From NCBI RefSeq assembly GCF_011008565.1, contig NZ_JAAIWK010000029.1, positions 1 to 48,159 on the forward strand: a stretch of DNA of 48,159 nucleotides, written 5' to 3'. Under the pieces are notes generated by a model, which saw nothing but the letters and a program-made list of their open reading frames with translations, did no database searches and had not been told where the DNA came from. Of the stretch, positions 3,573 through 9,123 are shown piece by piece (the first letter of the stretch is position 1; each line of letters begins with the position of its first letter). The translations under genes and the position numbers were made by a program. This DNA comes from Heyndrickxia ginsengihumi. GTDB lineage: Bacteria > Bacillota > Bacilli > Bacillales > Bacillaceae_C.

Positions 3573-3893
<321 letters not shown>

Positions 3894-4055: not shown

Positions 4056-5261
4056 ATGATGACAAAAATGAAAGTAGTTAATCTTGCCTCGGTTACTTTT
4101 ATGAAGGAATTGGATACTTTGGAGAAAAAGTTAAATCCTTTTCCAATATACGAGGAATTTCGTAAACATAGCCCCGTTCGTTATGATCAAGAAAGAAATT
4201 GTTGGGATATATTTCTATATGAGGATGTCGATTACGTTCTTAAACATTATGAATTATTTTCTTCCGAACAGCAGCGATTAATTAGAAGAGATAACATGTT
4301 ACGAATGGACCCACCCCGTCATAAACAATTGCGCGATCTTGTCAACAAAGGATTCACACCCCGTGCGATTAAGGAGCTGGCACCACGGATTCAGGAAATA
4401 ACTGAGCAATTAATAAGTAATGTATTGGACCAAGGCGAAATGAAGATGATTGATGACATGGCGATGCCTCTGCCAGTCATTGTCATTGCCGATTTATTGG
4501 GAGTACCGGCTGAAGACCGAGAAAAGTTCAAAGTATGGTCTGATATACTAGTAAAAGGTGTGGAAGATCCTCAGCCGGAAGTTTATGAAGCGGTAAAACG
4601 TGAGCAGGAAGATGTTCACCAGCAATTAAAAGAATATTTGTCTTACATCCTAGAACGGCGACGTTTTCATCCTCAAGATGATATTATTTCATCATTGCTT
4701 TCGGCCGAAATTGACGGAAATAAACTGACAGAAACAGAAATTTTAGATTTCAGTATTCTGTTATTAGCTGCCGGCAATGAAACAACCACTAATTTGATTA
4801 CCAATGGTGTTCGTTTAATGACAGAGATACCCGACATTCAAAGACAAGCGAAGAGTGATCTTTCTTTAATCCCTTCAATGGTAGAAGAAGTACTCCGCTA
4901 TTATTCACCGGTTCAAGCTCCATCAAGGATTGCAAAGCAAGATATTGAGCTGCAAGGCGAGTCAATAAAAAAAGGTGATATTGTCGTAGCATGGGTTGGC
5001 TCAGCAAATCGTGACGAAGCAAAGTTCCCTGCTGCAAATACTTTTCAAATTGATCGAAAGCCAAATCAACATTTGAGCTTTGGAAAGGGCATTCATTTTT
5101 GCTTAGGTGCACCGCTTGCGCGTTTAGAAGCACAGATCGCGTTTGAAAAAATGTTTACTCATTTTACCAATATTCGTTTGAAAGAAGCGGCACAAATTAA
5201 AAGAACACCTGCCCCGCAAATGTTCGGAGTAGTTGAGTTCCCGATTACATTTTCTTTGTAA
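4056..5261 (+). CDS. Cytochrome P450, CYP109-like
   Basis: A roughly 401-residue soluble class I P450. Visible motifs are the I-helix AAGNETTTN oxygen-activation motif, the K-helix ExxR in EEVLR, and the heme-ligand loop FGKGIHFCLGAPLARLEA with the thiolate Cys at about residue 349. The overall sequence is close to B. subtilis YjiB (CYP109B1), an oxidase of broad substrate range including fatty acids and terpenoids; the substrate here is open. An upstream in-frame ATG at 4023 exists, but AAAGGGGA lies just before the ATGATG at 4056/4059, which is the better start. The ferredoxin gene ends about 160 bases upstream, suggesting supply of its electrons. Confidence 0.9.
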   Translation: MMTKMKVVNLASVTFMKELDTLEKKLNPFPIYEEFRKHSPVRYDQERNCWDIFLYEDVDYVLKHYELFSSEQQRLIRRDNMLRMDPPRHKQLRDLVNKGFTPRAIKELAPRIQEITEQLISNVLDQGEMKMIDDMAMPLPVIVIADLLGVPAEDREKFKVWSDILVKGVEDPQPEVYEAVKREQEDVHQQLKEYLSYILERRRFHPQDDIISSLLSAEIDGNKLTETEILDFSILLLAAGNETTTNLITNGVRLMTEIPDIQRQAKSDLSLIPSMVEEVLRYYSPVQAPSRIAKQDIELQGESIKKGDIVVAWVGSANRDEAKFPAANTFQIDRKPNQHLSFGKGIHFCLGAPLARLEAQIAFEKMFTHFTNIRLKEAAQIKRTPAPQMFGVVEFPITFSL

Positions 5262-5282
5262 AATATTTAGAGGGTGAGGCCC

Positions 5283-5335
5283 CCTGAACGTCCGCGGAAA
5301 GCGAACCTCTGAAGCTGCTTTCCCTGCTGCCTTTT
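5283..5335. repeat. Family B intergenic repeat, copy 2
   Basis: Short G+C-rich piece with CCGCGGAAAGCGA...CTCTGAAGC, the core shared with the other family B copies. It lies between the P450 gene and the Fur-controlled fbp genes. Confidence 0.45.
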
Positions 5336-5367
5336 TTGTACGTAAGAAAGCCTTTTTTAATTTCCTC

Positions 5368-5419
5368 TTTACCTGACAAGTAATCTTCGATATAATTTTA
5401 ATTGATAATGATTATCAAT
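5368..5419 (+). promoter_or_regulatory. SigA promoter with Fur box for fbpA-fbpB
   Basis: TTTACC (5368-5373) and TATAAT (5391-5396) are 17 bases apart. ATTGATAATGATTATCAAT at 5401-5419 is a perfect 7-1-7 Fur box (TGATAATnATTATCA) over the expected transcription start, so iron-bound Fur should repress. Confidence 0.85.
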
Positions 5420-5445
5420 ATCAAAAAAGTGCAGGTGAAGCTTAA

Positions 5446-5610
5446 ATGGGAAATCTATTAAGAAAGTCTGTCGAACTTAAAAAATCACAACTAATCCATA
5501 AATTATTAGATTTAGGTGTTTATAAAAAATATGATAAACAGCTATATGAGCTGCCGCTAACAGTTTTAGAAAAAGAGTATCAGGTAATGAAAGGCGTTCA
5601 AAATAATTAA
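5446..5610 (+). CDS. fbpA: Fur-regulated basic protein FbpA
   Basis: A 54-residue basic protein, MGNLLRKSVELKKSQLIHK..., that resembles the FbpA family (short, Lys-rich, with a central LGVYKK and a distal YELPLTVLEKEY). In B. subtilis the Fbp proteins are made under iron starvation and act together with the FsrA small RNA in iron-sparing. The Fur box just upstream supports the call. The ribosome site is weak (CAGGTGAAG). The gene is too short for routine gene finders; fbpB follows 22 bases later. Confidence 0.8.
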   Translation: MGNLLRKSVELKKSQLIHKLLDLGVYKKYDKQLYELPLTVLEKEYQVMKGVQNN

Positions 5611-6127: not shown

Positions 6128-6155
6128 TTGAAAAGGCAGGTATTACTATTATAAT
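6128..6155 (+). promoter_or_regulatory. SigA promoter of the riboswitch operon
   Basis: TTGAAA (6128-6133) and a perfect TATAAT (6150-6155) are separated by 16 bases, placing the transcript start just before the riboswitch aptamer. Confidence 0.75.
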
Positions 6156-6173
6156 GAGAATAGGACTTCAAAA

Positions 6174-6268
6174 AATGAATACGAAAAGGGCAAATTCATT
6201 GAAAAATGAAGACGCAAAGCTATAGGGACTAACGTGTTGCCAACACTATGTCAGCCAGTTACCGATTA
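6174..6268 (+). ncRNA. c-di-GMP-I (GEMM) riboswitch aptamer
   Basis: The signature segments of the GEMM-I class are present in order: GGGCAAA, a perfect hairpin TTCATT-GAAA-AATGAA, the invariant GACGCAAAGC, GGGACTAA, a variable hairpin, and the closing CAGCCAGTTACCGA. The aptamer lies between a strong promoter and an intrinsic terminator, and the leader runs into the gene at 6382. It should sense cyclic di-GMP and adjust read-through. Confidence 0.9.
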
Positions 6269-6279
6269 TATGATGAAAT

Positions 6280-6314
6280 GAGACACTTATCGGTATAGGT
6301 ATGTCTCTTTTTTT
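6280..6314 (+). terminator. Riboswitch expression platform: intrinsic terminator
   Basis: GAGACA (6280-6285) pairs with TGTCTC (6302-6307), followed by TTTTTTT. The loop carries ATCGGT (6289-6294), complementary to ACCGAT (6261-6266) at the 3' edge of the aptamer, offering a mutually exclusive pairing. Whether c-di-GMP turns the operon on or off cannot be decided by eye. Confidence 0.8.
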
Positions 6315-6381
6315 ATGATTAAATAGGCGGTGTCTTCGTATTTGAATTCAGCCCCTTCAATTAAGGAGAGGACAGAAGACG

Positions 6382-6747
6382 ATGGCACAATTTCAAGTTG
6401 ATCATAAGAATAAGGCATTTATTATTACTTTAGGCGGATTTGCAGAAACTGAGAAGGCTTCTAACTTTGTAGCGGATCTAAAGAAGGAAGTTGCAAAAAT
6501 TCAAGTCAATCAGTTCACCTTGATCGTTGATTCGGCTAAATTAAGAACGTTTAAAACCGAGATTTTACCAGTTTTAGAAACGAGCTATGGTCTATATATG
6601 AGTTTAGGATTTAAAAATATTTTAATGGTTAAACCGGAAAGTGTCACACCACGATTGCAGCTTAAAAGGATTGCAAAGAAAGTGAATTTTTCCGGAGAAT
6701 TTATTGATAGTTTACAAGAAGCATTGAATGTTTCAATGCATAGTTAA
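6382..6747 (+). CDS. STAS-like small protein, first gene of c-di-GMP-controlled operon
   Basis: A 121-residue soluble protein. The pattern of a first strand AFIITLGGF, a helix, a strand FTLIVDSAKL, a long helix and a strand NILMVKPES resembles the STAS / anti-sigma-factor antagonist fold, but I do not see the usual phospho-serine motif (D-S-S/T), so this is a fold-level guess. A role as a regulatory or scaffold partner of the chemoreceptor two genes on would fit. Start ATG 6382 follows AAGGAGAGG. It is the gene directly downstream of the c-di-GMP riboswitch, and its stop is 49 bases before the next gene. Confidence 0.55.
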   Translation: MAQFQVDHKNKAFIITLGGFAETEKASNFVADLKKEVAKIQVNQFTLIVDSAKLRTFKTEILPVLETSYGLYMSLGFKNILMVKPESVTPRLQLKRIAKKVNFSGEFIDSLQEALNVSMHS

Positions 6748-6796
6748 AGTTATTTAAAGATGAATGTTGCATGATGAAACATAAGGAGATTAAAAA

Positions 6797-7795
6797 ATGT
6801 CAACAAATGTCATTTTAAAAGAAGTATCTGTGTACCATCCAAAAAAGGTTATGAATAATGACTATTACGTTACACATTTTCAGCGTCAAGGCAATGATAT
6901 CGGCCGTTTGCTTGACGCTCTTGGCCGCGAGAATCGTTATGTTGCAGATTATAAAACAGAAACGACTTTAACGATGGCGATTGCAGCTTCAAAACAAGTT
7001 TTAGAAGAAAGCAGTTTATCGGGAAAAGATTTAGATATGATTGTGTTTGTATCTGGAACACCTGAATATTTTTGGCCCCCTAATGCTGTTGCGATCCATC
7101 AGGCTTTACAAGGGAAAGAAGAGGTTATTGTGTACGATATGAATGTTGCCTGTGTTGGAATGGTTGTTGCTGTCGAACAAGTTAGCCGTAATATGCTAGC
7201 AAATCCAAATATCCAACGTGCTTTAATTGTCGGCTCAGAGCAGATGCATCGCTATGCAAATGAAGAGGATGCCGTAACATATGCAAGCTTTGGAGACGGA
7301 GCTGCTGCAGTCATTTTAGAAAAAAATCAAACAGACAACAGCGGATTTATTGATTCTGCTTATAAAGTAAATACTGAATCGATAGATAAAATTACATTTC
7401 CAGCATGCGGCGTTTCGAATATGTTTAATGCAAACATTGCTGATCGGGATAAGAAAATTAAATGGGAAAATGTGAATAATGATAATGCTTTTATGTCTAC
7501 TGTAGAACTGATTGAAAAGTTACTGAAGCGTAATCACGTCTCAACGAATGAGGTACAAGCTTTTTGTTTTTCACAGCTATCAAGGAAAAATATATATAAA
7601 GTAAAAGAAACGTTTAATGAGGATATTAAGAAGTTTCCAATTGTCGGCACTGATTATGGCTATACAGGCTCCGCTAGTCCTTTTATGGCGTTTGAGCGTG
7701 CAGTACGCACAGGTCAGGTTAAAAAAGGAGATTATGTCATCTTTTGGTCAGTGGGGGCAGGTACGGCAGCTTGTGCAATGCTATATAAATATTAA
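6797..7795 (+). CDS. Ketoacyl-ACP synthase III (FabH)-like protein with degenerate catalytic triad
   Basis: A 332-residue thiolase-fold protein with the family landmarks [22 protein letters not shown] and the nucleophile Cys119 in DMNVACVGM. In FabH the Cys works with a His and an Asn 30 residues apart. Here the matching places hold Ser259 ([10 protein letters not shown] instead of HQAN-type) and Tyr289 (YGYTGSASP instead of YGNTSAAS), also exactly 30 apart. The decarboxylating condensation of FabH is therefore unlikely; acyl transfer, acyl binding or sensing by Cys119 remains possible. It lies between a STAS-like protein and a chemoreceptor in a c-di-GMP-controlled operon, not beside fatty acid genes. 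ATG 6797 follows AAGGAGA. Confidence 0.85.
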
Positions 7796-7824
7796 AGAGG
7801 GTTATTTTTAAGGGGGGGCGTCAG

Positions 7825-9072
7825 ATGAAAATAAAAGGGATTACGTCAGGTACATTTAAAACATATGTATTACCATCTATAATCATCAGTGTTTTTTTGT
7901 TAACAAGTCTTTTAACGAAAAATGAATATGTAAAGCTATGGATCATCATCATTGGCGTAATTGCATTGATTGTATTAGGCTTATGGTCATCGATTCGTTT
8001 AACGGCTAGAGTAGCAAAAATGAAACAATATGTGCAAGATTTAGAATCCGGAAATTTTGCGAATATCGCTAAAATAAAAAGTAATGATGATTTCGGTACG
8101 ATTTTCGAGTCATTTCATAAGGCGACTAACCATATTCGAGAGCTCGTTGGGGAATTAAAGAAAGGCATATATGATGTAGATTCTAACTCCGATGAATTAT
8201 CGGCAACGATGACAGAACTTATTTACATAATGGAAGATGTAAAGGAAACAACAAATGAGATGGCGCACGGTTCATTAGAATTGAGTGCTACTACTCAACA
8301 AATCAGTGCATCAATAGAACAAATTGAATCTGGAACGAAAACATTAGCTGAAAAAGCAAATGAAGGAGAGCATATCGTTCAAGAAATTAAAGTGCGGGCA
8401 ACGCAAGTGAGAGAAGATGCAAAATCGGCGGCTATTTCATCTCATAATATGTATACTGAAAAGGCAGAAAAAATTATGCACTCGATCCAACAAGCGAAAG
8501 TAGTGGATGAAATTAAACTATTGGCAGATACGATCGGAAACATTGCAAATCAGACGAATCTCTTAGCTTTAAATGCTTCAATAGAGGCAGCGAGGGCAGG
8601 TGAAGCAGGCAAAGGTTTTTCAGTTGTTGCGGAAGAAATTAGAAAGTTAGCTGAGCAATCTTCAAAATCTGTTGATAATATTCGTGAAATCACCCATCAA
8701 GTTCAACAGGCATTTTCAAACTTGACTGCCAACTCTAAAGAAATATTAGACTATGTTGATACGAAGGTACAACCTGACTATGAAAAATTAGTGAAAATCG
8801 GTGTTCAGTACGAAAAAGATGCGGAATTTATTAATCAAATGTCAAATGAAATTGCCCAAGCAACGACAGAGATGGCAAGTGCGATTGAGGAAGTAAATAT
8901 GGCAATTCAAAATGTATCTGCTACAAGTCAGCAATCAGCTGCTGGAACAGATGAAATTTTAAATAATATATCAGAAGTTTCCTTAGCTATTAAAGAGACA
9001 GCAGATATGGTTCAAGCTCAACATCAATTAGCCATGAACATTAATGCAAAAACAACTCAATTTCAATTATAA
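7825..9072 (+). CDS. Methyl-accepting chemotaxis protein without extracellular sensor domain
   Basis: A 415-residue chemoreceptor. Two membrane helices (about 14-30 and 38-54) are joined by only about seven residues, so there is no ligand-binding domain outside the cell. A HAMP-like linker follows (about 55-110), then a methyl-accepting signalling domain with the CheA/CheW-contact tip in the stretch [20 protein letters not shown] and [15 protein letters not shown]. Input must come from the membrane, the HAMP region or a partner protein, perhaps the two proteins encoded upstream. ATG 7825 follows AAGGGGGGG, 29 bases after the KAS-like gene. Last gene of the riboswitch operon, with a terminator at 9092. 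Confidence 0.92.
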
Positions 9073-9091
9073 GTTGAAATATTCGAGAAAC

Positions 9092-9123
9092 GGAAATGCA
9101 CCTCAAATTTGGGGTGCATTTCC
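9092..9123 (+). terminator. Terminator of the riboswitch operon
   Basis: GGAAATGCACC (9092-9102) and GGTGCATTTCC (9113-9123) form an 11-bp perfect stem with a 10-base loop, 20 bases past the chemoreceptor stop codon. The T-run is short (TATTTGTT). Confidence 0.7.

Follow-up and report, generated by a model that had tools for sequence, protein, structure and literature searches.

The window, by which we mean the whole stretch of 48,159 nucleotides (nt) of Heyndrickxia ginsengihumi DNA analysed here, holds at positions 6128-9123 a short operon in which a cyclic di-GMP (c-di-GMP) riboswitch of the GEMM-I class leads genes for a predicted STAS-fold protein, a protein of the KASIII/FabH fold and a chemoreceptor (methyl-accepting chemotaxis protein, MCP). 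The three genes are co-directional (6382-6747, 6797-7795 and 7825-9072, as longest-open-reading-frame calls made in the analysis), and purine-rich Shine-Dalgarno-like runs can be read from the sequence ahead of all three. The features of the locus are as follows.

6128-6155, + strand: sigma-A-type promoter, TTGAAA-16-TATAAT (11 of 12 consensus matches)
6179-6266, + strand: c-di-GMP-I (GEMM-I) riboswitch aptamer (RF01051, 84 bits, E 3.2e-15)
6260-6266, + strand: last 7 aptamer nt, UACCGAU, candidate antiterminator strand (pairs with 6289-6295)
6280-6307, + strand: riboswitch intrinsic terminator (-8.5 kcal/mol, seven T directly after)
6289-6295, + strand: candidate antiterminator partner AUCGGUA within the riboswitch terminator (complement of 6260-6266)
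6382-6747, + strand: predicted STAS-fold protein, 121 aa (open reading frame, AlphaFold2 model, Foldseek)
6797-7795, + strand: KASIII/FabH-fold protein, 332 aa, Cys119-Ser259-Tyr289 (PF08541, PF08545, triad table, Foldseek)
7825-9072, + strand: MCP, 415 aa, with two transmembrane helices, HAMP and signalling domain (PF00015, transmembrane scan, hairpin tip)
9092-9123, + strand: operon-end intrinsic terminator (14 pairs, 7 G-C, loop of 4)

A prediction made earlier from the sequence alone (hereafter the original prediction) had drawn this layout as a perfect promoter, a GEMM-I aptamer, a terminator, three closely spaced genes and a final terminator. The intergenic gaps of 49 and 29 nt, an aptamer score of 84 bits against the RF01051 gathering score of 35, and the two terminators at 6280-6307 (-8.5 kcal/mol) and 9092-9123 (14 pairs) all agree with this description, the former terminator being one that a simple hairpin scan misses. 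The promoter is also present at 6128-6155, where it is the best-scoring site of the region, and is near-perfect rather than perfect with its 11 of 12 matches; promoter-like sites in the region are otherwise at chance level (15 versus a shuffled mean of 14.6). The aptamer aligns over model positions 1-87 of 87, its GNRA tetraloop is GAAA, and the c-di-GMP contacts G20, A47 and C92 are present in the RF01051 alignment as AGGGCAAA, GACGCAAAG and UUACCG, under the Vc2 numbering as we presume it to fall on this aptamer. The same three ligand contacts are named for the c-di-GMP-I class by Liu et al. 2024 (PMC11218506). A c-GAMP-type GEMM was also considered, but the alignment, as far as it can be read, has G at position 20.

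The receptor encoded by the third gene has a signalling domain well above threshold (PF00015, 113.1 bits versus a cut-off of 34.6) and a HAMP region (PF00672) that at 23.1 bits falls slightly below the cut-off of 25. Its hydrophobic segments, residues 13-31 and 36-54, leave four residues between them, the usual MCP hairpin tip is present, and Pfam at its cut-off finds neither an extracytoplasmic nor a cytoplasmic sensor domain. The same genome encodes 16 MCP genes and four CheW-domain (PF01584) genes, one of the latter in a CheA-sized frame of 685 aa.

The first protein matches no Pfam or NCBIfam family at the curated cut-offs. Pfam matches of its 39 relatives are scattered and weak, the SpoIIAA-like PF11964 appearing in 2 of the 39 (best E 0.045) and Pfam STAS in none at E up to 1 among the 25 families shown, and a profile of the family returned nothing significant from solved structures (best E 0.02, an antibody chain). 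The fold assignment derives from an AlphaFold2 model, the best of which reached a predicted local distance difference test score (pLDDT) of 78.1 while the other four scored 54.5-61.4. Foldseek places STAS proteins nearest to the model, with leading STAS matches at TM-scores of 0.55-0.72 and a best E of 6.8e-4 that is the single match below 0.001; of the top 18 matches, 15 are named as STAS, anti-sigma-factor antagonist (SpoIIAA and a homologue among them) or stressosome proteins, and the remaining three are TM1081 and two SiaC chains. On the strength of this model, gene 1 is assigned to the STAS fold. The predicted fold is held in common with RsbS, the RsbR stressosome domain, SpoIIAA, RsfB and SiaC, but unlike STAS proteins of the RsbS/SpoIIAA type the protein has no Pfam STAS match and no adjoining kinase gene, and the loop that we take to be the usual phospho-acceptor site carries no conserved Ser or Thr in the 39-member alignment. 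A partner-switching (anti-anti-sigma) role is not supported, there being neither a conserved phospho-acceptor nor an adjoining kinase gene.

A KASIII-derived family with an altered active site

The second protein of the operon is recognisably related to FabH, scoring above the cut-offs of both PF08541 (68.4 bits) and PF08545 (60.6 bits) and matching FabH in Foldseek at E 5.8e-22. Against the curated fabH model TIGR00747 it reaches 130.7 bits, where the cut-off is 292.1. An alignment of 58 members of its family (the KAS family) with 8 FabHs taken from the same genomes reveals that the FabH active-site Cys is kept in 58/58 genes, that the His position is occupied by Ser in 57/58 and Thr in 1/58, and that the Asn position is Tyr in 58/58, followed by an SQ pair whose Gln is invariant; His and Asn are present in 8/8 of the FabHs compared. 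In a quick tree the 58 members form one clade versus the 8 FabHs with support of 100, in a topology where 18 of 63 inner branches are open and the outgroup comprises the 8 FabHs only, with no other KASIII families. Persistence of the substitutions in 58/58 genes means that the change is conserved and not a product of decay, and a decayed pseudogene was for this reason, and for the open frames, rejected. An ordinary FabH was likewise rejected, given the family-wide replacement of His and Asn and a TIGR00747 score far under the cut-off.

What chemistry would such a site allow? In FabH, the acyl group is accepted by Cys, and decarboxylative condensation depends on His and Asn; His and Asn mutants of FabH retain transacylation, a point for which our literature search found no paper. 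Since the Cys is kept while His and Asn are replaced, the KAS family is predicted from its sequences to take an acyl group but not to condense it with a malonyl group. The family therefore holds fold, domain families (PF08545, PF08541) and active-site Cys in common with FabH (TIGR00747), and differs from it in the His-to-Ser and Asn-to-Tyr changes, the separate clade, and the STAS and MCP gene neighbours. This uncharacterised KASIII-derived family is one that annotation pipelines would label FabH-like. The names that the original prediction gave to the three proteins can be judged at this point: sensorless chemoreceptor holds for the 415-aa receptor (signalling domain at 113 bits, four residues between the transmembrane helices, usual tip), STAS-like agrees with the predicted fold even though no Pfam or NCBIfam family is reached at cut-off, and FabH-like is right for fold and domains (PF08541 and PF08545 over cut-off) and wrong if read as FabH identity, two of the three catalytic residues being replaced.

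Gene neighbours of the KAS family

Searches at E < 1e-40 placed the KAS family in 23/397 genomes of the order, 16/391 of the class containing Clostridium puniceum and 7/398 of the phylum; the last figure includes the genome of the window itself and one repeated clostridial genome. Distribution is patchy even within the genus of the window (2/5 genomes). The counts below rest on 58 KAS genes in 55 loci drawn from these samples, with G003 added via the STAS search and the duplicates L085, L124 and L141 (G1162, coordinates identical to G458) removed before counting; loci other than the window carry our own L labels.

Of the 55 loci, 7 (the window, L019, L020, L021, L049, L050 and L073) have the complete trio, with STAS, KAS and MCP genes following in this sequence on one strand, and a trio led by GEMM-I is present also in Heyndrickxia coagulans, Niallia nealsonii and a Niallia sp. 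A strain oddity is excluded by the recurrence of both trio and family in other genomes. More widely, a STAS gene lies immediately beside 39/58 KAS genes (3 of them on the opposite strand) and an MCP gene immediately beside 21/58 (11 on the same strand), where ~0.8%, and at most 1.9%, would be expected. This expectation of 0.8% assumes one gene per kb together with genome-wide MCP counts, candidates in a few clostridial genomes being incompletely scored, and the observed count includes by manual addition L021, where the frames of MCP and KAS overlap (20 by script, 21/58 with L021). By distance, MCPs make up 19/109 immediate neighbours of KAS genes, 2/106 of those at two genes and 6/276 at three or more, in a comparison that leaves out the window, L021, L085 and L124. 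An MCP adjoins 11 of the 19 KAS genes that have no STAS neighbour; for one more, that of L109, it is two genes on.

Loci with KAS-STAS or KAS-MCP neighbours occur in both Bacilli and Clostridia. The fewest changes required on the KAS tree are 7 for MCP, 8 for STAS and 5 for GEMM-I, which means that the links have been gained or lost several times. All 16 of 16 KAS-bearing clostridial genomes have MCPs versus 84/196 in the class sample, where all 8 KAS genomes are among the 84, a comparison weakened by the kinship of the genomes. The clostridial KAS-adjoining receptors have 4-6 hydrophobic segments within their first ~190 residues (9 examined), and six of them searched against Pfam have no sensor domain over cut-off (one shows DUF4077 at a score below it). 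A perfect match to the tip string is seen in the MCPs of L023, L109 and L111 and not in the other clostridial ones, whose tips must therefore deviate somewhat.

The STAS search also turned up a parallel arrangement (L074, L076 and L077) of a STAS gene, a gene for a 236-aa protein and a gene for an MCP with one N-terminal transmembrane helix. The 236-aa protein is present in 11/397 genomes of the order, and across its 14 loci the STAS gene precedes it in 14/14, an MCP follows in 13/14 (L155 being the exception) and a same-strand GEMM-I element stands in front in 9/14, once as the GGC subclass. It is GNAT-like by a weak match to PF00583 in 9/14 members (best E 6.4e-4; best E of a profile against the PDB 0.0018), and Pfam and NCBIfam searches returned nothing beyond these weak GNAT matches. 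The slot between STAS and a sensorless receptor thus appears to be filled by either of two unrelated, plausibly acyl-CoA-handling proteins. That two unrelated proteins occupy the same slot is our best argument for a functional module, though the GNAT assignment is weak.

Several further observations were made at these loci. Pyridoxal-dependent decarboxylase genes flank the GNAT-type operons of L074, L077, L152 and L159, and in L159 the decarboxylase gene is on the opposite strand with a c-di-GMP-I-GGC aptamer in front of it. A second GEMM-I (L076:7441-7524) lies right behind a STAS-GNAT-MCP operon, ahead of a gene of the sodium:neurotransmitter-symporter type. STAS relatives of 120-142 aa with no adjoining KAS, GNAT-like or MCP gene are found in L075, L078, L079 and L080. 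In Neobacillus terrae (L022:4152-4388), a group II intron end stands directly before about codon 8 of an apparently interrupted KAS-like gene.

Riboswitch association and sign of control

In 10/55 KAS loci a GEMM-I element heads the run of genes on their own strand (the window, L019, L020, L021, L061, L109, L111, L112, L163 and L165, the L165 aptamer resting on a model built in the analysis and not on Rfam), and among these are four of the seven trios (the window, L019, L020 and L021). Other arrangements are also seen. In L073, GEMM-I stands behind the trio and ahead of a GGDEF gene; in L163 (426-3967) and L165 (652-4345), the run consists of a sensorless MCP, GEMM-I, a thiamine pyrophosphate (TPP)-dependent enzyme, a CMD protein, STAS and the KAS-like protein; and in L109, GEMM-I leads KAS, an AMP-binding gene of the acyl-CoA ligase type and an MCP.

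A central question is whether c-di-GMP would raise or lower expression of the operon. A terminator follows the aptamer in 10/11 leaders examined, none having been found in L061. In the window and its three orthologues, the terminators begin 10-13 nt past the aptamer, a spacing compatible with a bound aptamer, and with the aptamer out of competition the terminator probability is 0.94-0.98 in these four trio leaders (0.98 in the window). The last nucleotides of the aptamer (UACCGAU) can pair with the terminator arm and loop (AUCGGUA) over 7-8 pairs in 4/4 GEMM-I trio leaders, a match reached by shuffled terminators in 55, 14, 18 and 26 of 2000 for the four leaders. UACCGAU includes the C92 equivalent, which pairs with the ligand. 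Because the antiterminator helix needs this ligand-pairing C, ligand binding and the helix would be mutually exclusive, which argues for OFF logic, and judged by sequence and pairing potential the riboswitch is probably an OFF switch, a sign of control that the original prediction left unstated.

The window aptamer is one of five c-di-GMP-I aptamers in its own genome, which also encodes a PAS-GGDEF gene, and the four further elements stand before varied genes or none. One (L081:6534-6618) is ahead of a GTP cyclohydrolase I gene (6779-7468) and just behind the PAS-GGDEF gene, an arrangement in which GTP use may be subject to feedback from c-di-GMP. Another (L082:5010-5092) precedes the gene (5173-5535) for a 120-aa stand-alone response-regulator receiver protein, with a protoglobin chemoreceptor of the HemAT type ~3 kb off. 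The third (L083:5041-5123) has no sizeable same-strand downstream gene within 1.6 kb (open reading frames <=57 aa), and the fourth (L084:5074-5162) leads a frame of 112 aa along with a family 2 glycosyltransferase gene, a target of the exopolysaccharide type.

Two features of the window lie outside the operon. Upstream of it, a small ferredoxin-like protein (CxxCxxC; 3645-3893) and a cytochrome P450 (4023-5261) are encoded in tandem and are likely a redox pair. The motif GCGGAAAGCGA, with <=1 mismatch, occurs 7 times in the window (130, 5294, 5881, 11394, 16917, 26727 and 42008) where 0.47 would be expected, the copies being parts of a dispersed intergenic repeat.

Interpretation and comparison with known systems

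How might a riboswitch, a STAS protein, a non-condensing KAS relative and a sensorless receptor work together? We tentatively favor a model in which the operon encodes an input module for chemotaxis, with c-di-GMP controlling its amount and an intracellular source providing its signal; of this, coupling and ligand are the parts that we infer. In this model, c-di-GMP binding would free the terminator, so that the module would be made mainly at low c-di-GMP, in the motile state. The KAS-like protein would be acylated on Cys119, or would bind an acyl-thioester or related metabolite, without condensing it, and its acyl state would report the pool. The STAS protein would serve as the adaptor that lets the KAS-like protein influence the sensorless receptor at its cytoplasmic part and, through it, CheA; in the parallel operon the GNAT-like protein would be the alternative metabolite-binding part, with STAS again as the link. 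Conservation of GEMM-I, terminator and trio across H. coagulans, Niallia nealsonii and the Niallia sp. supports this model, as does the finding that MCPs of both the trio and the clostridial KAS-linked type have no recognised sensor domain. Also in its favor are the pairing of the aptamer end with the terminator in the four trio leaders, the conserved Cys-Ser-Tyr site, the STAS and MCP neighbours of KAS genes, the presence of MCPs in every KAS-bearing clostridial genome, the parallel GNAT-like operon and the GEMM-I-led run of L109. In its general form, the model would make the KASIII-derived family, having given up condensation, and its STAS adaptor into a sensor in the cytosol that reads acyl-thioesters (or a derived metabolite), plugs into sensorless chemoreceptors and is gated by GEMM-I, with the unrelated GNAT-like protein, as a binder of acyl-CoA, filling the slot in other Bacilli; stated this broadly, it is unlikely to hold in full. 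If true, it would represent a new type of chemosensory input, in which metabolism is read via a dead or redirected enzyme.

Several results weigh against this model. No GEMM-I was found in front of 45/55 KAS loci, including the trios L049, L050 and L073, in a search that sub-threshold elements could escape. An MCP neighbor is absent from 37/58 KAS genes, so STAS-KAS must have a task there that needs no linked receptor; with most KAS genes in this situation, the targets of the pair may also include unlinked receptors or lie elsewhere. In L052, L055 and L056 (f2-family), exceptions among the KAS-adjoining receptors, the MCP is convergent, on the opposite strand, with 4HB-type, sensor-length spacing (4HB_MCP_1 in L052). 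The terminator loops of the four trio leaders are related and not independent, their terminator probabilities in free RNA are 0.35, 0.67, 0.07 and 0.74, which leaves the OFF logic energetically not clear-cut, and OFF logic, put to the same pairing test, is not supported for the GNAT-type leaders and L112. Finally, Bc1, which belongs to this riboswitch class and likewise stands before an MCP gene, is reported to bind c-di-GMP with hardly any change of expression in vivo (PMC11218506).

The last two of these results bear on an alternative in which the leader works as an ON switch or, as reported for Bc1, gives no response in vivo, so that the receptor level is not set by c-di-GMP as proposed. 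The published account of Bc1, where c-di-GMP is bound and mcpE expression is hardly altered, and of Bc2, which is an ON switch (both PMC11218506), speaks for this alternative, as do the mixed free-energy estimates for the ligand-free state. We nevertheless consider it doubtful, given the OFF layout in the window and three orthologues and a competing helix that uses the last nucleotides of the aptamer.

A second alternative is that the KAS-like protein is an enzyme, transferring an acyl group to a non-malonyl acceptor to make a metabolite or lipid, with STAS as regulator or structural partner and with the ligand of the MCP, or the motile state, going with that metabolite; there would then be no protein-protein coupling to the receptor. 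STAS-KAS pairs without an MCP are the commoner form, an AMP-binding ligase shares the gene run in L109 and comes after KAS in L054, a TPP enzyme and CMD proteins are ahead of STAS-KAS in L163, L165 and L167, pyridoxal-dependent decarboxylases stand beside GNAT-type operons, and GNAT-like proteins are usually enzymes. However, the accompanying enzymes vary by locus whereas STAS and MCP recur, and an MCP that detects a ligand should carry a sensor domain, none of which is known to Pfam in these receptors. For these reasons an enzymatic role by itself is judged somewhat unlikely, with the caveat that two constant partners accompanied by locus-varying enzymes would fit a sensor or an enzyme alike. 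Quite improbable is a lifestyle operon, in which c-di-GMP co-regulates unrelated genes of the motile (or sessile) state with no functional link: GEMM-I is known ahead of motility, surface and membrane genes (introduction of PMC11218506) and the five GEMM-I elements of this genome precede diverse genes, but the STAS-KAS and KAS-MCP links have been kept or regained many times, riboswitch or not (7 MCP and 8 STAS changes).

As a whole, the interpretation in the original prediction is supported in part. Its first refuting condition, a trio confined to this strain, does not hold, as a GEMM-I-led trio recurs in H. coagulans and in Niallia nealsonii and a Niallia sp. and three further trios lack GEMM-I, and the suggested search for co-occurrence found the riboswitch ahead of 4/7 trios; the usual tip of the receptor and the CheW-domain genes of the genome, one of them CheA-sized, also agree with it. 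The interpretation is to be corrected in the FabH identity and widened in that the association extends beyond the trio. Its view that no such system had been described holds in part. Control of an MCP gene by GEMM-I is already described in Bacillus, where the c-di-GMP-I riboswitch Bc1 stands ahead of mcpE in the Bacillus cereus group (Liu et al. 2024, PMC11218506), while the STAS/pseudo-KAS portion was not found: no STAS-KASIII-MCP operon appears in the literature searched, which excluded most subscription papers and included PMC11218506 and PMC6200980.

According to PMC11218506, Bc1-mcpE resembles the window in its c-di-GMP-I riboswitch, intrinsic terminators, MCP gene, Bacillaceae host and GAAA-tetraloop aptamer. 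It differs in that mcpE follows the riboswitch directly, with no STAS or KAS gene described there and the word STAS absent from the text, in a tagged McpE of ~68.6 kDa that is much larger than the 415-aa receptor, and in having two terminators and a weak in vivo response. The placing of GEMM-I ahead of MCPs is puzzling if, as that source has it, Bc1 hardly responds in vivo; here the receptor is sensorless and comes with two conserved partners, which offers candidates for a tie between c-di-GMP, acyl metabolism and chemotaxis in Firmicutes. Neither the conserved Cys-Ser-Tyr site nor the parallel GNAT-like operon was found in the literature searched, mostly without subscription papers.

Some chemoreceptors receive their stimulus via partner proteins, as with the substrate-binding proteins that act on Tar, and a second protein that delivers the signal is the idea common to those receptors and to the model for the window. 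Unlike in the Tar type, the candidate partner here would be an enzyme-like protein of the cytosol, and no sensor domain at all is recognised in the receptor. The trios may be regarded as riboswitch-controlled chemoreceptors with possibly a new sensory principle.

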